A stretch of DNA of 33,119 nucleotides from a virus. The notes under the pieces were generated by a model. The model was not told the origin of the DNA, made no database searches, and worked only from the letters and a program-made list of their open reading frames with translations. Shown one piece after another: positions 349 through 33,119 of the stretch; positions within the stretch are counted from its first letter, which is position 1; every line of letters starts with the position of its first letter. The DNA lies in the IMG/VR virus record IMGVR_UViG_3300044859_001357, positions 1 through 33,119 of that record; one strand, 5' to 3'. Both the position numbers and the translations under genes were made by a program.

Positions 349-380
349 GGTATTGGTTAGTAAAGGATACAGACAGGGTG
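1..380. repeat. Terminal direct repeat, left copy (contig overlap)
   Basis: These 380 bases align without gaps to 32740-33119. I count 15 mismatches, all between positions 127 and 256; the outer 126 and 124 bases are identical. The repeat lies exactly at both ends of the window, which is what a circular or circularly permuted genome gives when an assembly runs past its start. The mismatches suggest that two co-existing variants of one locus were each captured once. A true tandem duplication is possible but less likely. Confidence 0.9.
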
Positions 381-2198
381 GGTAACTGCCGAGTAGCTGG
401 ACGGTCTGCGGACTTCTGGACTACTCATGTCCGCTGGCAAGGAGCTGATCCCGCCGGTCGCAATGATGCCAAACGCTCCGACGTTTGCACTCAGATCTCG
501 CGGACACGCATTGAAAACCTCCCTAAATCCTGCATTGGCCCCAAATTGATCTGTGGCCCTAACCCCCAGAGTGGTTCCATTGTTAATTACCCAGTCAGCA
601 GCACCTTTTGACGGCAGCAATGCAACGTAGAACAGTCCCGAAACTTCGCCGACATTGATGGTAGCCTCGACGAGGCTGGAGACACTTGCACATGACCATT
701 CCCAAACAGCTCCGAGCCGTGTTTTTGGGAATCCGTTCGCGTCTGGCAAATAAACACCCCCATATAAAACATCCGTCACACTCGTCCCAGCCGTGATGGC
801 GATGGCGCATTTTGTGTAGGTGCGGATTTTTGTGATGTAAAACGGCACGAATACAGTTCCCGCCGGATTTCCGGCAGGAGCCCCAAAGCTAAACGAATAA
901 GTGCTGCCGAATCTGCCACCCAGTATCGGTGCTGTTGCCGTGTTCAGCGTATTTTGCAAGACGACCGTTTGCGGATCGAGATCGTATTTCCCGCGAGGGC
1001 CAAATCGACCCTCCACATCCGCCAGCGTAATAAGACTGGTCGCCGTAGGAGTCCCCGTCCCGCTTGATGTCGGGCGGGTGGTCGAGCTGAAGATCTGCGA
1101 TCCGGTGAACGTCTGAGTGCCGCTGGACGGGTTGATCAGCGCGACCGTGCCTGTATCGTTTGGAAATGCAATCGCGCGGTCGGCTGTCGCGGCGTGGGAT
1201 AGCGTGGTAGTGTAATCGCCGTTGAAGAGTTTGAAGGTCGAGCGCGACTGGATGTAGGCGTTTGTGCCGCTGGTGGAGATATAGGCGTCGGCTCCGAAAG
1301 TGGAGATATAGGCGTCGGAGCCGTTTGTGTAGATGTTGCCGTAGTCTCCGGTTGTGGAGATGTAGGCGTCGGAGCCGGTTGTGTAGATGTGGGCGAAGTC
1401 TCCGTTTGTGTAGATGTTGCCGTCGGAGCCGATTGTGGAGATGGTGGCGTATTGTCCGAATGTAAAGATGCGACCGGTGATTCCGTATGTAAAGATGCTG
1501 GCGGTAGTTCCGGTTGTGAAGATGTCCGCGCCGCTGCCGTTTGTGGAGATGGTGGCGTCGTTTCCGCTTGTGGAGATGGTGGCGTTGGCTCCGGTCGTAG
1601 AGATTACGCCGCTCGCGGTAACCGTCGTTGCGGTGGCGGCTCCCAGCGTGGGGGTGGTGAAAGATGGCGAGATGAGCGGGGCTTTAAGCGCGAGCGCGTC
1701 GAAGACCGCGTTGCCAGCAACGGCATTCGCGCTGCCGTCGATGATGGTGGCGTCCACGGTGGCTTGGATGCCTTGGATGCCTTGTTCGCCTTGGATGCCT
1801 TGGATGCCTTGTTCGCCTTGTTCGCCTTGTTCGCCTTGTTCGCCTTGTTCGCCTTGGATGCCTTGGATGCCTTGGATGCCTTGGATGCCTTGGATGCCTT
1901 GTTCGCCTTGTTCGCCTTGTTCGCCTTGTTCGCCTTGTTCGCCTTGGATGCCTTGTTCGCCTTGGATGCCTTGTTCGCCTTGTTCGCCTTGTTCGCCTTG
2001 TTCGCCTTGTTCGCCTTGTTCGGCTTGTTCGCCGGGTGGGCCTTGGATGCCGGGTGTGCCGTTGTCGCCGTTGTCGCCTTTTAGCGACTCCAGCCACGCT
2101 GCCAGCGTCCCCGCAAATCCATTGGCCACCGCCAGCTGGTAGGCGTCACGCGCCAAAGTGATCGGCGCGGAAATCTCGTTTTTGACGGTAGTGATCAT
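357..2198 (-). CDS. Collagen-like tail fibre protein with beta-solenoid repeats
   Basis: A 613-residue protein with four visible parts. The N-terminal ~40 residues are probably for tail attachment. Residues ~41-150 are Gly-X-Y collagen-like repeats, mostly GEQ and GIQ triplets, expected to form a triple helix. Residues ~195-320 hold about a dozen near-regular 10-residue units of the form xAxIxTxGxx, the sort of pattern that folds into a stacked beta-solenoid. The C-terminal ~290 residues are non-repetitive, contain a typical fibre sentence ([15 protein letters not shown]), and probably form the receptor-binding tip. Collagen-like regions are common in phage fibres. The gene follows the tail hub and a small tail protein and precedes the unknown gene at the circle junction. 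The fibre call is an inference from repeats and position. Confidence 0.8.
1255..1620. repeat. Degenerate 30-bp repeats encoding beta-solenoid units
   Basis: Imperfect repeats of about 30 bases, such as GTGGAGATATAGGCGTCGG and GTGTAGATGTTGCCGTCGG on the plus strand, encode the 10-residue xAxIxTxGxx units of the fibre. The variation between units is mostly at non-core residues, which fits selection for a solenoid fold. Confidence 0.75.
1763..2034. repeat. 9-bp tandem repeats encoding Gly-X-Y triplets
   Basis: About 30 tandem 9-base units alternate between two forms, read on the plus strand as CCTTGTTCG and CCTTGGATG. They encode Gly-Glu-Gln and Gly-Ile-Gln triplets of the fibre. All units keep the reading frame. 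A perfect 9-base tandem array is prone to slippage, so fibre length may vary between individuals, and the assembled copy number may be unreliable. Confidence 0.95.
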
Positions 2199-6134: not shown

Positions 6135-6788
6135 TTAGGAAACGCGAGTGATTTTCACGAACGATCCGACCTTGACGGCCACGGCGGAGGCTGCCACCTC
6201 GCTCTTGATTTGAAATTGCAGCGCGGCCGTTGAGCTCGCGGTGAACACGCCTTGCAGCAATATGCCAAATGGATTCGTCGCCACCGGGGCGGAGGTGGCG
6301 GCATAAGTCCCCCCGATGGCGGCGATGGACAACGCGGAGCCCGAGTCCATCATGATCAGCGTGCCCGCCCCGCCGGAGTTGACGATCTGCACGCCCGTGG
6401 TGGTCGCCGCGCTTGTGGCGATGAGCGCCATCTCGATCAAATATACCGCCCCTGAAACGGGGACAAAATCCCATTCAGTGAGCGCGACCGGGGTGGTGGT
6501 GGACGCGAGAACGTCCGAGGTGATCCGCATGATGACAGGCACGTTAAGGGCCGTGAGTGCGCCGGAGACATTGAGTGCGCCGGAGACATTGAGTGCGCCG
6601 GAGACGGTGAGTGCGCCGGAGACGGTGAGTGCGCCGTTGATTTTGAAGCCGCCGGAGACGAGTTCCATCACGGTGGCATTTCCCGCGCCGTCGCGGATCA
6701 CGGCCGCTCCGGTAGTTCCGGTGCCGATGTGGAGAAGCTGGGCGTAAGTCGAGGAGAGGCTTGATCCGGTGAGGCTATTGGCTGGCAT
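6135..6788 (-). CDS. Repeat-containing virion protein, unknown function
   Basis: A 217-residue protein. Residues ~45-80 consist of six-residue repeats (GALTVS and GALNVS) of the kind seen as beta-structured stalks in trimeric fibre or tail-decorating proteins. The following ~130 residues are a beta-rich domain with many Ala, Thr and Val (MALIATSAATTTGVQIVNSG), similar in feel to small receptor-contact domains. It lies just before the tape measure gene. No enzyme motif is visible. A minor tail or fibre-like role is inferred from repeats and position. The start ATG at 6788 has the leader AAACC and no Shine-Dalgarno sequence. Confidence 0.65.
   Translation of the reverse strand: MPANSLTGSSLSSTYAQLLHIGTGTTGAAVIRDGAGNATVMELVSGGFKINGALTVSGALTVSGALNVSGALNVSGALTALNVPVIMRITSDVLASTTTPVALTEWDFVPVSGAVYLIEMALIATSAATTTGVQIVNSGGAGTLIMMDSGSALSIAAIGGTYAATSAPVATNPFGILLQGVFTASSTAALQFQIKSEVAASAVAVKVGSFVKITRVS
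6553..6636. repeat. 18-bp tandem repeats (4.7 units)
   Basis: Units of TTGAGTGCGCCGGAGACA / GTGAGTGCGCCGGAGACG repeat in tandem. They encode GALTVS or GALNVS hexapeptides. The repeat keeps frame and can vary in number by slippage. Confidence 0.95.
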
Positions 6789-7850: not shown

Positions 7851-8405
7851 TCACGCGTAGGTGACGAACGTGTTGAGCGGGCTTGGGCGTTGCTCCAAGC
7901 TGAACTCGACCGAAGACGTCACTGGGCCGATGTCGCCGTCATTGACAAGGCGCAGGCGGGACCAGACTTGGACGCGCTCGATGATCGCGCCGGACTTGTT
8001 TTGGACTTCCAGCAGCATGACGCCATCAAGGAAGTTGTCAGCCTTCACGCCGGGCGATTGGGCGGAGGAAGCGACCAGCGCAGCGGCAAGACCGTTTTCG
8101 AGTTGCTTGAGGTAACTGTTGGTCTTGTGGGTGGTAGCCGTCCACTTGCGCATCGTGACCATCTCCTCGATGTCTTCATAGTAGCCGCCGTTATCGGCTG
8201 GCACGTTGAAGGTTTCGCTTTTGACCGTCTTCGCGGACTTGACGGTTTCGATGTCTTGGAACTGGTAGCTGGTCCAGTTGCTCGACGGGCTGTTGTCAGG
8301 CCATGTGGCATTGGCGACGGTGATTCCATCGACGAGTTCGCCGGACGGGACGAAATAAAGGCGGGCGTTTTTGAGTTCGCGGCGGATAAGGGTAGGAGCA
8401 GCCAT
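7851..8405 (-). CDS. Major tail (tube) protein
   Basis: A 184-residue protein starting MAAPTLIRRELKNARLYF. Its size and its place between the head-tail connector genes and the tape measure match a tail tube protein, which polymerises into the non-contractile tube. Beta-rich stretches (ENFLDG-like VMLLEVQNKSGAIIERVQV; SSVEFSLEQRPSP near the end) fit the tube fold. No sheath gene is found anywhere, so the tail should be a flexible siphovirus-type tail. A stable hairpin follows the gene, as it does after the capsid gene, which fits high expression. Sequence identity to a named family is not certain. Confidence 0.7.
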   Translation of the reverse strand: MAAPTLIRRELKNARLYFVPSGELVDGITVANATWPDNSPSSNWTSYQFQDIETVKSAKTVKSETFNVPADNGGYYEDIEEMVTMRKWTATTHKTNSYLKQLENGLAAALVASSAQSPGVKADNFLDGVMLLEVQNKSGAIIERVQVWSRLRLVNDGDIGPVTSSVEFSLEQRPSPLNTFVTYA

Positions 8406-26462: not shown

Positions 26463-26728
26463 GCGGATAGCGGCCGGAGTTGATAGAGGAAGTCCCGTGA
26501 TTCACTGTCGCGCTTGAGCCGCACGTCGTAGCCGCTCGACCGCAGATCACGCAGACGCCGGAGCGATTCGCGCTGGCCGCCGACCTCGATGATCTTGCTG
26601 GCCGGGTGCCATTCGCCGTCCGACATGAGGCCGAGGATTAGCCGCTGGGCTTTGTTAAAATCCTTCAGGTCTTGGGTGGTCAGAACACCCACGCCGCCGA
26701 GACTCTCGATTGTTGCGTTGGTTTTCAT
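26459..26728 (-). CDS. Winged-helix protein, early-operon regulator candidate
   Basis: An 89-residue protein. Residues ~25-85 (NKAQRLILGLMSDGEWHPAS, GQRESLRRLRDLRSSGYDVRL and SRDFLYQLRPLSA) have the helix-helix-wing layout of winged-helix DNA-binding domains. Both ends overlap neighbours by ATGA. It may regulate early transcription. The target is not known. Confidence 0.6.
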   Translation of the reverse strand: MKTNATIESLGGVGVLTTQDLKDFNKAQRLILGLMSDGEWHPASKIIEVGGQRESLRRLRDLRSSGYDVRLKRDSESRDFLYQLRPLSA

Positions 26729-26853
26729 GGCTGAATGAGTTTGACGAGTTCGCGCAAGGCGATGACGGCTCCGATTCCGGCGGCTCCGAAGGCGGCTGCC
26801 ATCGGGACGGCTAGCCAGTCGGGCGGGTTGGCGATGATTTTCGGGATTTTCAT
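26725..26853 (-). CDS. Small single-span membrane protein
   Basis: A 42-residue protein from ATG 26853 (MKIPKIIANPPDWL). Residues ~13-36 (LAVPMAAAFGAAGIGAVIALREL) form one transmembrane segment. The stop overlaps the next start by ATGA. It follows a copy of the 17-bp operator-like repeat. Function is unknown; superinfection exclusion is one of several options. Confidence 0.6.
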   Translation of the reverse strand: MKIPKIIANPPDWLAVPMAAAFGAAGIGAVIALRELVKLIQP

Positions 26854-26881: not shown

Positions 26882-26898
26882 GTTGAATTGCGTTTAAC
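26882..26898. promoter_or_regulatory. Operator-like palindrome (site A)
   Basis: GTTGAATTGCGTTTAAC is a 17-bp imperfect palindrome with halves GTTGAA and TTTAAC spaced by five bases. It lies in the gap between the HTH gene and the small membrane protein. Sites at 27296, 27352, 29796 and 31730 share this layout. Confidence 0.55.
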
Positions 26899-26905
26899 TG
26901 TGAGA

Positions 26906-27076
26906 TCAAAAAATGAACGCTTTCCGCTCGGGTTTGATTTGGATCTGGTCAAGGTCGTAGCGGATCGGCTTGACGGGCAGGATCGGCCGGATGGCCCCCG
27001 ACTTGTTCCAGCGGCTAACCGTGCGGCGCGAAACCTTGAAGTGCTCGGCGAACTGTTTTGGGCTGACGGGGTTCAT
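26906..27076 (-). CDS. Excisionase/MerR-type small HTH protein
   Basis: A 56-residue protein (MNPVSPKQFAEHFKVSRRTV). The HTH is PKQFAEHFKVSRRTVSRWNK, followed by GAIRPILPVKPIRYDLDQI, the short-wing pattern of MerR-like excisionases. It starts by ATGA overlap with the RHH gene above. Such proteins act as excisionases or early regulators. Being near attP and the integrase, an Xis role is plausible but unproven. Confidence 0.7.
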   Translation of the reverse strand: MNPVSPKQFAEHFKVSRRTVSRWNKSGAIRPILPVKPIRYDLDQIQIKPERKAFIF

Positions 27077-27246
27077 GGCTTATCCCGGTTGATGGTGGCT
27101 TCCAAAGCGCGGCGAAGAACGAGGCGGCAAAATGCCGATTCGCTCCGCTCTTGGGCTTTGGCGAGCTGTTTGATTTGGCTGCGCAGTTCGGGGCTGACCC
27201 GGATTGCGAGGTAGGAGTAGGCTTGGTCTGGTTTTGGTTTAGGCAT
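27073..27246 (-). CDS. Ribbon-helix-helix regulator, first gene of the early operon
   Basis: A 57-residue protein. The strand SYLAIRVSPELR and the two helices SQIKQLAKAQERSE and SAFCRLVLRRALEA match the Arc/MetJ-type ribbon-helix-helix fold, a dimeric DNA-binding unit. It is transcribed leftward from the shared region 27247-27414, opposite the RHH gene at 27415. Two divergent regulators around shared operators are the usual arrangement of a lysis-lysogeny switch. Stop and next start overlap as ATGA. Confidence 0.7.
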   Translation of the reverse strand: MPKPKPDQAYSYLAIRVSPELRSQIKQLAKAQERSESAFCRLVLRRALEATINRDKP

Positions 27247-27295
27247 CGGTTTAGTTTAGGTTGGCTTATATTTGAGCGCGCGGACCTTTTACTCA

Positions 27296-27312
27296 GTTAA
27301 ATTGCGTTTAAA
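27296..27312. promoter_or_regulatory. Operator-like palindrome (site B)
   Basis: GTTAAATTGCGTTTAAA, halves GTTAAA and TTTAAA with a five-base spacer. It lies in the divergent regulatory region. It shares AATTGCGTTTAA with site A. Confidence 0.55.
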
Positions 27313-27342
27313 AGATAAATTTTGCGAAAACGAAAAATTATT

Positions 27343-27370
27343 TTTACACGGTTTAAAACGCGTTTAAAAT
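27343..27370 (+). promoter_or_regulatory. Sigma70-like promoter for the rightward regulator, with operator C
   Basis: TTTACA (27343-27348) and TAAAAT (27365-27370) are separated by 16 bases and lie 45 bases before ATG 27415. The operator-like palindrome TTTAAAACGCGTTTAAA fills the spacer (27352-27368), so a bound repressor would block RNA polymerase. The region around is AT-rich. Confidence 0.5.
27352..27368. promoter_or_regulatory. Operator-like palindrome (site C)
   Basis: TTTAAAACGCGTTTAAA has halves TTTAAA and TTTAAA with spacer ACGCG, an almost perfect palindrome. It matches the layout of sites A, B, D and E. Confidence 0.55.
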
Positions 27371-27414
27371 TCCTCCCAATGACGGACCAAAGCCCCCGTC
27401 AAAAATAAAAAAAA

Positions 27415-27630
27415 ATGACCGAAAAATCTCAGCCCGGCCGCTCCCCCGGTAACACGATGCTCGGGGTTTCCATGACAGTTGAACTCAAGGCAGCGATCCG
27501 CAAGGCCGCCGAAAAAGAAAACCGCACGATGGCCAATTGGTGCGCGGTCTACCTGCAAGCGGCCGTCGATGAAATCCAAGCCACGACCAAGCGCGAGGCC
27601 GGAGGCAAGCCGCCGACCAAATCCGCGTAG
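27415..27630 (+). CDS. Ribbon-helix-helix repressor candidate
   Basis: A 71-residue protein. The strand LGVSMTVELK followed by helices AAIRKAAEKENRT and MANWCAVYLQAAVDE is the RHH pattern. The flanks are disordered and basic (MTEKSQPGRSPGNT; TTKREAGGKPPTKSA). It is the only gene besides the integrase on the plus strand. It lies between the operator region and attP. It is the best candidate for the lysogeny repressor, binding the palindromes in its own promoter and those at 26882, 29796 and 31730; this is an inference. Confidence 0.75.
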   Translation: MTEKSQPGRSPGNTMLGVSMTVELKAAIRKAAEKENRTMANWCAVYLQAAVDEIQATTKREAGGKPPTKSA

Positions 27631-27642
27631 CGTCATCTTAGA

Positions 27643-27652
27643 GTCAATAATC
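27643..27652 (+). other. Integrase arm-type site candidate P1
   Basis: GTCAATAATC lies 48 bases left of the tRNA-like core. Two related decamers lie to the right of the core (27817 and 27826). Short repeats on both sides of an attP core are typical of integrase arm sites. Confidence 0.4.
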
Positions 27653-27699
27653 GCCCTGATGACCCGAAAACCACTGCAAATAAAGGATCGGCCTGTTTC

Positions 27700-27743
27700 T
27701 TCGTAATGAATAGGTCGTGAGTTCGAATCTCACCAGCGGCTCC
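27700..27743 (+). other. attP core: 3' half of tRNA-Thr(CGT)
   Basis: From the anticodon loop TTCGTAA (anticodon CGT at 27702-27704) on, the sequence matches the end of a bacterial threonine tRNA. It has a T-stem GTGAG with loop TTCGAAT and CTCAC, acceptor strand CAGCGGC and TCC. The 5' half is missing, and the base after TCC is T, not A of CCA. This is what a phage attP looks like when it restores the host tRNA on integration. The site is 108 bases before the integrase gene. Confidence 0.85.
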
Positions 27744-27816
27744 TGTTTTTCAAAGAGTTACGAAAAACGAGAAAGCGGAAACGGGACGGAAATGGACACG
27801 TTCGGACAGGTGTAGC

Positions 27817-27835
27817 GTCAATAACGTCAACAATT
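27817..27835 (+). other. Integrase arm-type site candidates P'1 and P'2
   Basis: GTCAATAACG (27817-27826) and GTCAACAATT (27826-27835) form two adjoining decamers related to GTCAATAATC at 27643. They lie between the attP core and the integrase start. The wider context TAGCGTCA is also shared (27628 and 27814). Confidence 0.4.
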
Positions 27836-27850
27836 CTAACTGAGGAAACC

Positions 27851-28909
27851 ATGCCCCGGACACCTAAAATGATCGTCATCTCATCGCCGGATGGGCACAC
27901 GGTGGACATCCCCGCTTGCCTTTCCGCTGACGGTAAAAGGCACCGGAAACGGTTTGCGGCAAAGACGGAGGCGGAAAAGTTCGCGGCCCGGCTGCGGGCG
28001 GAATACGGCTCAGGCGTGCGCGGCTCGGCCTTGTCGGCCAATACCGCAGCGGATGCCGTCCGGGCGATGCAAATCCTTGCCGCCCACAAAATGACGCTTA
28101 CGGAGGCCGCTAAGATCGCCGTGGCGATGGCCGAGAAGGATCACGGCGGCGAGACGTTTGCCGACCGATTCCGGCGCTGCTACGCGGACGGGAAAACGCA
28201 CTGGTCGCCGAAATACGAAAAGCAGATGAGGAAGATTCCGACGTGGGTGCCGGACTGGTTTTTGGAATCCCGCTGCGGCGCGTGCGACCGGGCGACGATT
28301 GAGCGAGCCGTCCTTGAGATGAAGCCGGGTGCCTCCCTAAGTTCGCTGGGTTATTATTCGATTCGGATCAATTCGGCCCTGCATTTCGAGCGCCCCCGCC
28401 ACCGCAAGAAAGCCAAAATCGTGATCCTCGATGCTGACCAGCGGCTGGCAATGTTCGCGGCCTGCAAGTCACGGGCGGAGACGTTCGCCGTCGCTCTCCT
28501 GATGTATGCCGGAATTAGGCCGGACTCTGAAAATGGAGAAATCATGCGGCTCGACTGGGCCGCGTTTGCTAATGATGAAATCGAAATCAGTGAATTCGTC
28601 TCAAAAACCAATCGGCCCAGAAAGATTCCGATCTTGCCCGCGTTGCGGCGGTTGATTGCTGACCGCCCGACGCAGGGCCGTGTCACCCCGAAAAACTGGC
28701 CGAGAGTCTGGACGCGGCTGCGGGCGGCGGCAGGGCTGACAGACTCCGACGAATGCCGCCACACGTTCGCTAGCCACCTGCTTGCGCATTACGAGGGGCA
28801 CGAGGGGAAGACGAAGCTAGCCATGGGCCACACTGAGGGCAGCGCGGTCCTCTTTCGGCACTACGCCGCAGCGGTCAACATTGCCGAGGGCAAGGCGTAT
28901 TTTGCGTAA
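27851..28909 (+). CDS. int: Tyrosine recombinase integrase
   Basis: A 352-residue site-specific recombinase. N-terminal residues ~20-55 are an arm-binding domain (GKRHRKRFAAKTEAEKFAARLR); a core-binding helical domain spans ~75-180. Catalytic residues are R223 (GIRP), K252 (SKTNRPRKIPI), R303-H304 (ECRHTFAS), H327 (MGHT) and nucleophile Y338 (FRHYAA). The usual His at the start of the HxxR box is replaced by Asp (D300). GAGGAAACC before the ATG is a Shine-Dalgarno-like leader, rare in this genome. A two-way terminator follows. It catalyses integration at tRNA-Thr(CGT). Confidence 0.92.
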   Translation: MPRTPKMIVISSPDGHTVDIPACLSADGKRHRKRFAAKTEAEKFAARLRAEYGSGVRGSALSANTAADAVRAMQILAAHKMTLTEAAKIAVAMAEKDHGGETFADRFRRCYADGKTHWSPKYEKQMRKIPTWVPDWFLESRCGACDRATIERAVLEMKPGASLSSLGYYSIRINSALHFERPRHRKKAKIVILDADQRLAMFAACKSRAETFAVALLMYAGIRPDSENGEIMRLDWAAFANDEIEISEFVSKTNRPRKIPILPALRRLIADRPTQGRVTPKNWPRVWTRLRAAAGLTDSDECRHTFASHLLAHYEGHEGKTKLAMGHTEGSAVLFRHYAAAVNIAEGKAYFA

Positions 28910-28914
28910 CTAAA

Positions 28915-28945
28915 AAAAGCCCCGCCGGATTAGGGCGGGGCTTTT
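28915..28945. terminator. Bidirectional terminator between integrase and accessory operon
   Basis: AAAAGCCCCGCC and GGCGGGGCTTTT form a 12-bp perfect stem with a 7-base loop. A T run follows on one side and an A run precedes on the other. It can end transcripts from the integrase (plus) and from the leftward operon ending at 28960 (minus). Confidence 0.9.
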
Positions 28946-28959
28946 AGTGGTTAGGAGGA

Positions 28960-29250
28960 TCAGGCGTCGCACTCGGGAAGCCGCTTTGCCCCCCAGCCGT
29001 GCTCCTTCGCGTAGGCTTTCGCGTCGGCGACCGTCCGGAACAATGGTTGCCTGCCGATGTTGTCGCCTTTCCAGTGGGCAAGTTTCCAGTCCCCTTCTGC
29101 GCGCCTGAAAATCATCGCTATCGTCTGATGTTTCGGAGGCCGCCCGCCCTTCTTACCATTGGCCGCGCTGGCGGCGTTCTGGGCGGGTGTCGGGTTAATG
29201 CGGGAGAGTTTGCCGAGGGCAACGGCGGCGGGGTTCTTGGTTGTTTTCAT
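28960..29250 (-). CDS. Small protein with AT-hook-like segment
   Basis: A 96-residue protein. The N-terminal half (NPAAVALGKLSRINPTPAQN) is disordered and includes GKKGGRPPKH, an AT-hook-like basic motif that could bind DNA minor groove. The C-terminal half (AEGDWKLAHWKGDNIGRQPLF, VADAKAYAKEHGWG) looks like a small alpha/beta unit. It is the last gene of the leftward ArdA operon and ends at the terminator. Function is unknown. Confidence 0.6.
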   Translation of the reverse strand: MKTTKNPAAVALGKLSRINPTPAQNAASAANGKKGGRPPKHQTIAMIFRRAEGDWKLAHWKGDNIGRQPLFRTVADAKAYAKEHGWGAKRLPECDA

Positions 29251-29271
29251 TTTCGTATTTCGTTGGGTGAT

Positions 29272-29787
29272 TCAATTTTCGAAGAAATGAAGCTCTCCTG
29301 ATTCACCTCGCTCGCACCAGTAGTCGTAGCGCAAGGAGCAGTTCCACGTTGCCTCCCAGTCAATGATAATCCAAGAAGGAAAATCAGCCGGAATGGCGTC
29401 CGTTTCAATCGCCTGATTTTCCGTGAAATCCGCTCTGCTTTCGGCGGTCCCGGCATACTTCTCAAGGAAGTCGTCAATGCTCGGCCCTACGTTCTCGGCG
29501 TATAACCCGAAGGCCTCCTTTTGCCATTCTTCCATTTCGATCCATTCCCAGAGAATCGCGGGAGGGGCGGAGCTTTCGGAATACCAGATTTCCGGGAACC
29601 CTTGAAAATCTTGAAACATGAGTTCCGGGTCTTGCTCGTCGGAATGCAGGGCGGCTGCGGCCTCAAGGAACTCGTCGCGGGTTGAGTATTCGCTGAGGTC
29701 GAGCCAGTCCCCAGCAATGCTGCCTGAGTTGTATTTGGCGTAGGTTCCGACGTAGAGCATCGGGTGGTTTGCGTGTTGCGTTTTCAT
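29272..29787 (-). CDS. ardA: Antirestriction protein ArdA
   Basis: A 171-residue very acidic protein. The ArdA signature is clear: MLYVGTYAKYNSGSIAGDWL, then FQGFPEIWYSES and LWEWIEME, LYAENVG, FLEKYAGTAESRADFT, and SWIIIDWEATWNCSLRYDYW. ArdA dimers mimic bent B-DNA and block type I restriction and some modification enzymes. The length matches the family (~165-170). The start lies next to a 17-bp operator-like site, so it may be among the first genes made after infection. It complements the DNA base modification cassette. Confidence 0.93.
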   Translation of the reverse strand: MKTQHANHPMLYVGTYAKYNSGSIAGDWLDLSEYSTRDEFLEAAAALHSDEQDPELMFQDFQGFPEIWYSESSAPPAILWEWIEMEEWQKEAFGLYAENVGPSIDDFLEKYAGTAESRADFTENQAIETDAIPADFPSWIIIDWEATWNCSLRYDYWCERGESGELHFFEN

Positions 29788-29795
29788 TTAATTGG

Positions 29796-29812
29796 TTTGA
29801 ATGGGGTATAAC
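29796..29812. promoter_or_regulatory. Operator-like palindrome (site D) at the ardA promoter
   Basis: TTTGAATGGGGTATAAC, with halves TTTGAA and TATAAC, begins 9 bases before ATG 29787 on the minus strand. The surrounding ~52 bases are about 90% identical to the block at 31719-31770. On the minus strand TTTTTTTTGACT lies at a -35-like place. Confidence 0.55.
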
Positions 29813-29827
29813 TGGATAGTCAAAAAA

Positions 29828-29852
29828 AAGCCGGGGGATCGAACCCCGGCTT
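29828..29852 (-). terminator. Rho-independent terminator after 29857
   Basis: On the minus strand AAGCCGGGG / CCCCGGCTT forms a 9-bp stem with a 7-base loop and is followed by a run of eight T. It ends the operon that runs from 31721 to 29857. The T run merges with the TTGACT-like box of the ardA promoter. Confidence 0.88.
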
Positions 29853-29856
29853 GTGA

Positions 29857-30147
29857 TCATGCGTAGAAATAGACTCGCCGTGAGTCATCGAGATTCCAAG
29901 CGTCATGGCGGTGTGCGGACGGGTTGTAAGGATCATACGGCAAGATGCCGAAGCTCTTGCCGTTGACGCTGCGCTCCATGTCGCGCTCCGTAAGATTGTT
30001 GTAACCTCTATATGCACCAGAGGCGTGCAGAACATCGCCAAGGACAATAGCGGCCCCAATCCGGCGTTCTTTCCAATCATCGGGGGAATGGATGAGTAGC
30101 GAATTTACAGCGTCAAGCAGGTCTGTGATTTTGATCGTTTTTTTCAT
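29857..30147 (-). CDS. Small accessory protein, unknown function
   Basis: A 96-residue protein. The N-terminal half (IKITDLLDAVNSLLIHSPDDW, GAAIVLGDVLHASGAYRG) is helical. The C-terminal half (YDPYNPSAHRHDAWNLDDSR) is rich in Tyr, Asp and His. No family is recognised. It is the last gene before the 29828 terminator. Confidence 0.6.
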   Translation of the reverse strand: MKKTIKITDLLDAVNSLLIHSPDDWKERRIGAAIVLGDVLHASGAYRGYNNLTERDMERSVNGKSFGILPYDPYNPSAHRHDAWNLDDSRRVYFYA

Positions 30148-30165
30148 AGTGGTGGCGGTTTTTAT

Positions 30166-30336
30166 TTAGTAGGAATGAAGTTGGATGCTGTCGTTTGCGC
30201 CGCTATTTTCCGGCTCGTTTTGTTGGTCCTCAAACTCAAGCTGATCGTGCGCAAGGTCACGCGCCGCGCTGGGCGGGGCGTCCTTTGCAATCCAATAGTC
30301 ATAAGCTGCGGCAAATCGTTCTTGGTAAGTTTTCAT
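30166..30336 (-). CDS. Small acidic protein, unknown function
   Basis: A 56-residue protein from ATG 30336 (MKTYQERFAAAYDYWIAKDA). It starts by ATGA overlap with the upstream stop. The rest is acidic and likely disordered (HDQLEFEDQQNEPENSGAND). No function is known. Confidence 0.55.
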   Translation of the reverse strand: MKTYQERFAAAYDYWIAKDAPPSAARDLAHDQLEFEDQQNEPENSGANDSIQLHSY

Positions 30337-30812
30337 TTGGTGTGTGTGTGTGTTGTTGCCTTGGCGATTGCAGCGTGGTGCGCTGTCATTGCTTGTTCGC
30401 AAGCGATACGTTTTTCTAAGTTGTCGCGGTCTTCTCGATGCGCGGCGGCGGCTGTGTTCCAAACCGTAGCGGTGTCGCCGTTCGCTTTGGCGATTGCGGT
30501 GCGAGCAGCCCCCCACATTGCAAGGTCGTAGCTGTCGGCTTCCCGTGGCTCCTGTGGCATGAGCATTTGCAAAGCCTCCAGCAATTCAGGCGCGGCGGCG
30601 ATTAAGCGAGCATTTGCCCCGGCATCGTTGTCTTGGATGTGATATTGCGTTACGTTTGATGAGTGATTATGGACTATCGCAATCCGCAATCCCCGCGCCA
30701 AATAAAACGACGTTTCGGAAAGCTCGTTTTGAATGTAGCCGTCCCAAGTTATTGTATCGTTGCCAATTAGCAACCATGCTGCTTCTTTTGTGATTTCTAC
30801 GGAATGTGTCAT
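30333..30812 (-). CDS. Phage accessory protein, unknown function
   Basis: A 159-residue protein. It contains the phage phrase NARLIAAAPELLEALQ, seen in many uncharacterised phage proteins. Residues 1-60 are beta-rich (SVEITKEAAWLLIGNDTITW). The C-terminus ends in Thr-His repeats (ATTHTHTK) from a CA dinucleotide tract that runs to the next start. It belongs to the leftward operon from 31721. Confidence 0.65.
   Translation of the reverse strand: MTHSVEITKEAAWLLIGNDTITWDGYIQNELSETSFYLARGLRIAIVHNHSSNVTQYHIQDNDAGANARLIAAAPELLEALQMLMPQEPREADSYDLAMWGAARTAIAKANGDTATVWNTAAAAHREDRDNLEKRIACEQAMTAHHAAIAKATTHTHTK
30340..30352. repeat. CA/GT dinucleotide tract before a start codon
   Basis: On the minus strand CACACACACACAC followed by CAAATG leads directly into the gene at 30336. 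A second such tract is at 31100-31116. It occupies the ribosome-binding region. Confidence 0.7.
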
Positions 30813-30845
30813 TGTTTCGTTTGGTTTTGTGTTTGTTGCAGTGGG

Positions 30846-31091
30846 TTAGCGGGTGGCAGCGACGGCAGCAGTGACTACTGCGACTAACTGTGGGGCGACT
30901 TCGCAAATCACTGATCGACCGTCGATGATTGCGTGAGCGATCAGCTTGCAGGTGGCAGTGGTGATTTTCTGATTTGCGGTGACGGTGAACGTGTCAACGT
31001 CGCCTTCGATGACGATGTCGCCGTTAGGGATTCGTTCGCCGAGAAGGATGCTAAGGACTGCGTTCTCTGCGTTGCGGATGGTGGTGTTCAT
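30846..31091 (-). CDS. Small accessory protein, unknown function
   Basis: An 81-residue protein (MNTTIRNAENAVLSILLGER...). It is beta-rich in the middle (NGDIVIEGDVDTFTVTANQK) and has an Ala/Val-rich C-terminal end (APQLVAVVTAAVAATR). No motif is recognised. A CA dinucleotide tract stands just before the ATG. The gene is in the leftward operon from 31721. Confidence 0.6.
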   Translation of the reverse strand: MNTTIRNAENAVLSILLGERIPNGDIVIEGDVDTFTVTANQKITTATCKLIAHAIIDGRSVICEVAPQLVAVVTAAVAATR

Positions 31092-31099
31092 TTGGTGTG

Positions 31100-31116
31100 G
31101 TGTGTGTGTGTGTGTG
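31100..31116. repeat. CA/GT dinucleotide tract before a start codon
   Basis: A 17-base GT repeat (CA on the minus strand) lies 9 bases before ATG 31091. Like the tract at 30340 it is joined to an ACCAAATG leader. Such tracts can change length. Confidence 0.7.
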
Positions 31117-31151
31117 GAGAGAGTGAAGCGGGGGAACCGCTTGTGGTTGGT

Positions 31152-31721
31152 TTAGGCTTCCGTGCAGGCATCCCAAACGGCGTCGAATGCCTCGGCGTTT
31201 TTCTTGTTGCGGCGACCTGTTGCAGAGGTTGCTTTGGCAACATACTCAGCCTGCCGAGATGAGAGTGGGCGAACCTCAAGTTGGTCAGCGAGGGACTGGT
31301 AGAATTCGTTGCCTTCATGCGACCGGAGCATATCGGCGATGTAGCCAATTTTTTCCCGGCGGCTGGCGAGGAGTTGGGCGTGAGCGTCCTCTGCTGCCTG
31401 CTGGCGTTGCCGGTAAGCGTCAAACTCGGCTGCGCGTTTTTGATTGCGAGCCTCAAGCTGCTGAGTGGTCAATCGGTAACGGATTGATTCAGAATCGGCT
31501 CCAACTTTAAGAGCGCATTCGCTGCCAATGAATCTAAGAACGCCCTCATCGTCTTTAATAACAACATGGTGGAGGATGCCAGTGCCGCAATGTGAGCAAC
31601 TCCCAGCCCCTTCGGGGGCGTTGGCGAGAGCTGCATAGTATGCGCTTGGGTTATGCTCGGCAAGTGAAGGAGACGGCAGGCTGAAAAAGCCAATGACATT
31701 AGCGTTTCTGAGTGATTTCAT
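31152..31721 (-). CDS. Phage protein with zinc-finger-like CxxC motif
   Basis: A 189-residue protein. Residues ~42-75 carry CSHCGTGILHHVVIKDDEG and a GSECALKVG, a zinc-ribbon pattern seen in uncharacterised phage proteins. A long charged helix follows (QLEARNQKRAAEFDAYRQRQ). The C-terminal part (LSSRQAEYVAKATS) may be another helical unit. It is the first gene of the leftward accessory operon and lies next to operator site E. Confidence 0.7.
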   Translation of the reverse strand: MKSLRNANVIGFFSLPSPSLAEHNPSAYYAALANAPEGAGSCSHCGTGILHHVVIKDDEGVLRFIGSECALKVGADSESIRYRLTTQQLEARNQKRAAEFDAYRQRQQAAEDAHAQLLASRREKIGYIADMLRSHEGNEFYQSLADQLEVRPLSSRQAEYVAKATSATGRRNKKNAEAFDAVWDACTEA

Positions 31722-31729
31722 TTAAATGG

Positions 31730-31746
31730 TTTGAATGGAGTTTAAC
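31730..31746. promoter_or_regulatory. Operator-like palindrome (site E)
   Basis: TTTGAATGGAGTTTAAC, with halves TTTGAA and TTTAAC, begins 9 bases before ATG 31721 on the minus strand. It lies in a ~52-base block nearly identical to the one at ardA (29785-29836), including TTTTTTGACT at a -35-like place. The accessory and ardA operons are therefore probably co-regulated. Confidence 0.55.
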
Positions 31747-32727: not shown

Positions 32728-33087
32728 TTACGGCTCGGGCTCGGGTTCCGGCGGCGCAACGTAGACAAATGCGGCTCCGTCGAACACGATGTCCGAGCGG
32801 CCAGCAGTTACAGGAGCGCGGCTGGCGAATCGCGGGACAGCGAGCGCGTCGAGGCTGGCGTTGACCTGCAGGCCCAATGCGGTATTGGCGGCAAATGTGG
32901 CGAGCGTAGCTGGCACGTCGGCGTTCAGCACGGCCAGCAGGCGGTCGGTTGGAAGACTCCAGAACTGCGCGTTGGTGGTGGCGAGCGTGCTGGCGAGATG
33001 GTGCGTGGCTTCGCCTGCTTGCAGGACGAGTTGTTCTTTTGCCTGCAAGTCGGCTTCGGCTTGGGTGAGTTGGCGGATGATTGACAT
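32728..33087 (-). CDS. Tail-region protein of unknown function, full-length copy
   Basis: A 119-residue protein. A coiled-coil N-terminus (QLTQAEADLQAKEQLVLQAG, ATHHLASTLATTNAQFW) is followed by a small domain and a PPEPEPEP tail. The ATG at 33087 has the leader ATACC. In the circular genome it comes right after the collagen-like fibre gene (the copy at 1-348) and before the lysis cassette. Family not recognised. A fibre-associated or assembly role is inferred from position. Confidence 0.7.
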   Translation of the reverse strand: MSIIRQLTQAEADLQAKEQLVLQAGEATHHLASTLATTNAQFWSLPTDRLLAVLNADVPATLATFAANTALGLQVNASLDALAVPRFASRAPVTAGRSDIVFDGAAFVYVAPPEPEPEP

Positions 33088-33119
33088 GGTATTGGTTAGT
33101 AAAGGATACAGACAGGGTG
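32740..33119. repeat. Terminal direct repeat, right copy
   Basis: This copy aligns without gaps to 1-380 with 15 mismatches between offsets 127 and 256. It marks the overlap of the circular molecule. With the repeat counted once, the genome is about 32.74 kb. Confidence 0.9.

Follow-up and report, generated by a model that had tools for sequence, protein, structure and literature searches.

Lysogeny is usually explained by repressors of the CI type, which carry a helix-turn-helix (HTH). In phage P22, whose main repressor is C2, the small ribbon-helix-helix (RHH) repressors Arc and Mnt lie beside it in a secondary immunity region. Arc and Mnt, together with the RHH protein YosL of SPbeta, are mentioned in the covered passages of PMC10516654. 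Outside phages, Reg of the conjugative plasmid p576 (pLS20 clade II) represses through dual heptamers at four promoters, more weakly at its own; homologues of this Reg are predicted to be RHH proteins, and the anti-restriction gene ardC is under an operator of the Reg kind (passages covered of PMC8708921). Here we describe a virus DNA, IMG/VR record IMGVR_UViG_3300044859_001357, whose entire length of 33,119 bases is called the window. It contains five operator-like sites and, beside them, two divergent genes for small RHH-like proteins, RHH1 and RHH2. Judged from sequence, the five sites are probably dual-heptamer operators of one or both adjacent RHH proteins, in a lysogeny and early-gene switch with RHH2, perhaps together with RHH1, as the proposed repressor. 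RHH repressors of the Arc/Mnt and Reg kinds are known; a paired RHH form that replaces CI looks new, and no paper among the matches listed from the open-licence literature describes a phage switch built on two divergently encoded RHH proteins.

The putative switch resembles Arc and Mnt of P22 in having two small RHH repressors near each other in a temperate phage. P22 also has C2, whereas no C2-like repressor was found here by PF00717 or PF01381. Compared with p576 Reg, the phage system differs in that Reg is plasmid-borne, reads another heptamer with a 2-bp gap, and has operators that flank the promoter rather than lying inside it; Reg is also single, with no divergent RHH partner described in the passages covered, whereas the phage has a divergent pair. 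With lambda CI/Cro and with the S24-peptidase modules of two relatives, G394 and G395, the locus shares divergent regulators, common operators and a lysogenic/lytic boundary at the integrase and early operon. Those regulators are HTH-S24 proteins, whereas the RHH proteins of the window are without an autocleavage domain, so that induction would have to work by another route. The RHH pair occupies the place that CI and Cro would have.

Operator sites and promoters

The pattern KTTRAAN5TWTAAM occurs at exactly five places in the window (seven strand-matches), compared with a mean of 0.03 and a maximum of 1 in 100 dinucleotide shuffles. These are the five sites of the original prediction, which had named an equal frequency of matches in coding regions as grounds for dropping the idea. 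None of the five exact places (0/5) is coding: all lie outside a hand-picked gene set that makes 94.8% of the window coding and leaves 5.2% noncoding, and each has a start codon no more than 80 bp downstream. Allowing one mismatch gives 8 places, of which 6 precede starts and 2 are coding (3058 and 19336); the match at 27341 overlaps the site at 27352. With two mismatches, 9 of 15 places fall in noncoding DNA, but 5 of these noncoding matches are bunched at 27341-27363.

The unit was originally described as a single 17-bp palindrome. It is better read from the sequences as a pair of 7-bp GTTWAAC-like boxes set 10 bp, or one helical turn, apart; the palindromic appearance arises because the box is itself near-palindromic and two of them stand at this distance. 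Sites of the relative L004 are direct repeats (GCCGTTTAACGCCGTTAAA), and L003 has three boxes in tandem at 8219-8245 (TTTAAACTCAATTAAACTGAGTTAAAA). Over 11 regulatory regions from six phages, the window included, box autocorrelation at lag 10 was 57.25, with further peaks at lags 20 and 21; 500 first-order Markov resamplings averaged 1.47 at lag 10 (standard deviation 1.62) and never reached the observed value. Since the box was picked by eye in the same regions, this value gauges the spacing of boxes more than their existence. The lag-10 peak and the triple array of L003 agree with the p576 Reg kind of operator, in which short boxes are repeated at about one helical turn.

Among these candidate operators, that at 26882-26898 (minus strand) consists of GTTGAAT (26882-26888) and GTTTAAC (26892-26898), has a -35-like TTGATC 11 bp before box 1, and precedes the leftward early operon that starts at 26853; the same place is occupied in L003, L084 and L148. 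The operator at 27296-27312 (minus strand) precedes RHH1 and reads GTTAAAT and GTTTAAA on the plus strand. The operator at 27352-27368 (plus strand) lies in the spacer of the RHH2 promoter, between TTTACA (27343-27348) and TAAAAT (27365-27370) at a spacing of 16, which agrees with the predicted position between the -35 and -10 of the rightward regulator. The operator at 29796-29812 (minus strand) precedes ardA, with a -35-like TTGACT 11 bp before box 1 and the end of box 2 8 bp ahead of the ardA ATG; an orthologous site is found in L003 at 5618. The operator at 31730-31746 (minus strand) precedes the accessory operon. The predicted placement ahead of the leftward early, ardA and accessory operons was therefore recovered for 26882, 29796 and 31730. 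The duplicated block around 29796 and 31730, given as about 52 bases and 90% identical, has 48 of 55 positions identical, or about 90% without its first four bases. At the sequence level, this is a regulon.

We oriented 18 sites to their genes in a hand-assembled table. This table omits the weak L003 RHH2 site, the L148 lineage and the L004 site at 1108 (at the end of RHH2), as well as exact boxes inside genes (window 3268, G390 7731 and 9783, G391 10867). Relative to box 1, T stands at -11 in 14 of the 18, T at -10 in 15 and G at -9 in 10. The promoter layout is thus a -35-like TTK about 11 bp before box 1, with box 2 over the -10, and by its sequence the box pair is at a core-promoter position suited to repression. 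Box 2 ends 6-10 bp ahead of the ATG at 10/18 sites, which predicts leaderless mRNAs.

Conservation in related phages

Divergent RHH1 and RHH2 genes are found in seven lineages (the window, G389, G390, G391, G392, G393 and G418-420), of which the window and G389 are closely related. Boxes precede the conserved pair, and a small HTH gene is also part of the module. RHH2 is followed by the integrase in the window, G389 and L148/L170; the G390 integrase lies on that side too, but points towards RHH2. Divergent regulators beside an integrase and an early operon, the layout of a lysogeny switch, are accordingly present in the window, G389, L148 and L170. As side observations, L114 and L115 (genomes G211 and G103) have further divergent RHH pairs, of a different strand type.

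A matrix was built only from 10 sites of the distant phages L004, L084, L086 and L087, picked by eye before scoring. Among all positions of the window it ranked the five sites 1 (27296), 2 (26882), 3 (31730), 4 (27352) and 8 (29796); the positions ranked 5 and 6 overlap the site at 27352, and 3058, at rank 7, is coding. A separate matrix scan of the relatives used the window's own five sites. In 16 records searched with the pattern GTTWAACNNNGTTWAAM at up to one mismatch, 6 of the 9 with the RHH pair matched, always at regulatory sites, compared with 1 of the 7 without it (G394, ahead of the capsid gene); the reversed pattern gave one match across all 16. A DNA-only search of the viral collection with a relative's operator, CCGTTWAACGNCGTTWAA, returned 32 stretches, 4 of which encode the RHH pair and the HTH protein. 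One is L004's own contig and three are new (L148, L156 and L170); these are counted as one lineage, because they are mutually 93-96% identical where aligned. RHH2 itself is rare, as protein scans of the same collection yielded five contigs.

Several results weigh against this picture. In 28 of the 32 stretches no RHH pair was detected by hidden Markov model (HMM) in the DNA examined, and a second pattern, based on the operators of ardA and the early operon, returned 22 stretches, none with the pair. No site after the HTH gene was found in L086, L087 or L004. The RHH2 site is poor in L003 and L148, and the sites of L087 are poor. G394 has a box array upstream of its capsid gene yet no phrog_3431 match. 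The Pfam RHH matches of both window proteins fall below the cut-off, that of RHH1 being to RHH_5, whose cut-off RHH1 of L084 exceeds at 30.9 bits, and the RHH2 model described below contains no strand. Finally, of 22 more records with RecT, 21 gave no S24 match.

The capsid-upstream arrays were seen as tandem boxes spaced by 10 bp just before the capsid gene in G389 (L133, about 6475-6515) and G394 (L135, 9778-9814, GTTTAACTCGGTTCAACTAGATTAAAC). Such an array was looked for in the window and is absent.

The RHH pair and other candidate binders

The two genes expected beside the cluster are there. RHH1 (27073-27246, minus strand, 57 amino acids), at the Cro position, matches phrog_3431, 'Arc-like repressor', with E 1.3e-10, and its gene overlaps the start of the HTH gene. 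RHH2 (27415-27630, plus strand, 71 amino acids), at the CI position and the proposed maintenance repressor, matches phrog_3431 with E 1.7e-5. Both proteins are thereby placed in the RHH superfamily by profile. The AlphaFold monomer of RHH1 has a mean predicted local distance difference test (pLDDT) score of 79.6, with two helices and bridge residues, and that of RHH2 a score of 71.9, with two helices. The top PDB folds for the two models are mostly RHH proteins (CopASO, CopG, AmrZ, Arc and PutA), although all are weak, with Foldseek E above 0.3. The nearest PDB sequences are also weak: PutA for RHH1 (E 0.025) and 2kel, 'Uncharacterized protein 56B', which we take to be the archaeal viral repressor SvtR, for RHH2 (E 0.15). 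PutA reads GTTGCA, likewise starting with GTT. Taken from sequence, the RHH pair is the best candidate for the binder of the boxes.

Whether both proteins bind is a separate matter. RHH1 could bind alone, as an autoregulated Arc-like early repressor, with RHH2 having another role such as control of the integrase. This is the strongest of the alternatives, but we consider it improbable. RHH1 has the better Arc-like score, and its promoter usually carries the better site: for the best site within 75 bp upstream, scored with a matrix whose training sites were picked by eye beforehand, RHH1 outscores RHH2 in 6 of 7 phages, by 0.2 (in L084) to 13 bits, the two tying in L087, where both are poor. 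However, RHH2 is the better conserved, at 40-48% identity between the window and L004, L084, L086 and L087 compared with 25-40% for RHH1; the GVSM of its strand is invariant in six sequences; and it occupies the position of the S24 repressor of G394/G395. The usually weaker site at the promoter of RHH2 also hints that this protein is the one maintained as repressor.

The neighbouring HTH_17/excisionase-like protein (26906-27076, minus strand), which follows RHH1, matches Pfam HTH_17 just below the cut-off (E 1.5e-5) and has PHROG excisionase and small terminase matches. It could instead be the binder, as a Cox-type repressor/excisionase on direct repeats, for which the Cox boxes of P2 are a precedent. 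Directly repeated boxes suit a Cox-like protein, a weak Cox match is present (phrog_575, E 0.071), and the gene follows RHH1 in the window, L003, L004, L084, L148, L156 and L170 (by HMM), in L086 (by Pfam) and in L087 (by eye only). Against this, L013, L090 and L091 have an HTH_17-looking gene, as read from sequence, beside other repressors and with no such boxes nearby, and the inner symmetry of each box would fit a dimeric RHH ribbon. The boxes of the window and L004 are alike although their HTH proteins share 24% identity, but RHH1 is about as divergent (28%). We regard HTH binding as unlikely, more so than binding by RHH1 alone. Least likely is that the sites are a host promoter class or host-regulator sites such as those of LexA: every site overlaps a sigma70-like core and host SOS control of early phage genes is conceivable, but the one-turn repetition of boxes exceeds what -35 and -10 elements need, and the two S24-repressor relatives are without boxes in their regulatory region. 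The Verrucomicrobia LexA palindrome is not enriched in the window, with 4 matches at up to two mismatches against 12.2 expected and none at the five sites.

Possible exchange with S24 repressors

The early operon begins with a 42-amino-acid protein (26725-26853, minus strand). G394 and G395 share this protein (54%), and there it follows an S24-peptidase (CI-like) repressor in the position of the RHH pair; no boxes were found in their regulatory region. In a search for a lambda-type CI (S24/HTH_3) repressor, PF00717 (S24 peptidase) matched in 0 of 6 RHH records and the PF01381 (HTH_3) cut-off was passed by 0 of 8 records, although some records may be partial. Among the 22 additional records with RecT an S24 match was found in only one, so the replacement was observed in just G394 and G395, two close relatives. 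Separately, L013, a phage sharing RecT, has an RHH-like gene (phrog_3431, E 5e-4) opposite what reads from sequence as an HTH repressor; different palindromes, about ACTTTCYATTTTTRGAAAGT, lie between the two at about 6290-6370.

Other genes and host

Downstream of RHH2 and co-oriented with it is a tyrosine integrase (27851-28909, plus strand; PF00589 E 5.6e-4, below the cut-off). Between RHH2 and the integrase, at about 27690-27743, a stretch with the end TTCGAATCTCACCAGCGGCTCC resembles the 3' half of a tRNA gene and is likely attP; ARAGORN found no tRNA, and an Rfam scan gave no match. ArdA, an anti-restriction protein, is encoded behind the 29796 operator (29272-29787, minus strand; PF07275 E 2.4e-17, above the cut-off), and the first gene of the accessory operon lies behind the 31730 operator (31152-31721, minus strand; phrog_2319, of unknown function, E 3.3e-5). 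Elsewhere, a tail-fibre-like gene (357-2198, minus strand) has collagen-like GEQ/GIQ repeats at 1684-2140. The window ends, 1-380 and 32740-33119, are identical at 365 of 380 positions, with all 15 differences within positions 127-256. This imperfect terminal repeat probably means that the genome is circular or redundant and varies between strains.

We know of no isolate or lysogen of this phage. The integrase is 32-36% identical to the annotated integrases of two Akkermansia phages, from which a Verrucomicrobiota host can only be guessed. A 45-base stretch of the window resembling a tRNA 3' end was found, at up to two mismatches, in none of 387 genomes of the phylum of an Opitutales metagenome-assembled genome. 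An RHH2 search of the same genomes gave 10 with matches, mostly to another RHH type (strand TQISISL) with no evident kinship. Scans of genome contigs found no RHH2 and 17 distant loci for RecT, and neither RHH2 nor the capsid protein had a match in 50,697 phage records.

Discussion

We propose that two RHH dimers would sit next to each other on the same face of the DNA, covering the spacer and the -10, and exclude RNA polymerase. In a lysogen, RHH2 would silence the leftward early operon, the RHH1-HTH genes, ardA and the accessory operon. Once the phage enters a cell without repressor, all these promoters would fire together (zygotic induction), giving early production of ArdA. As the first product of the lytic operon, RHH1 may be a Cro-like partner that competes for these boxes. 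The original prediction of a lysogeny switch, in which one small repressor holds several operons, is sustained in part: the regulon, the promoter overlap, the tracking of the RHH pair across phages and the S24 repressor in its place in two relatives are in its favour, while its operator has been recast as a dual heptamer. A fuller version is possible but on balance doubtful. It would be a complete immunity switch in which two antagonistic RHH paralogues act on the same dual heptamers as an RHH counterpart of CI/Cro. Its cassette would be exchangeable with S24 modules and would merge the operator and promoter with the start codon within about 45 bp, giving leaderless early mRNAs.

The operator has the specificity needed of a DNA tag, since a blind search with it found more phages of the kind. 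The placement of ardA in the early regulon is akin to that of anti-restriction genes on conjugative plasmids. If the proposal is true, two RHH proteins of 57-71 amino acids with no self-cleaving domain would mean that the logic of CI/Cro arises from another fold, and such a switch raises the question of the route by which the phage is induced.

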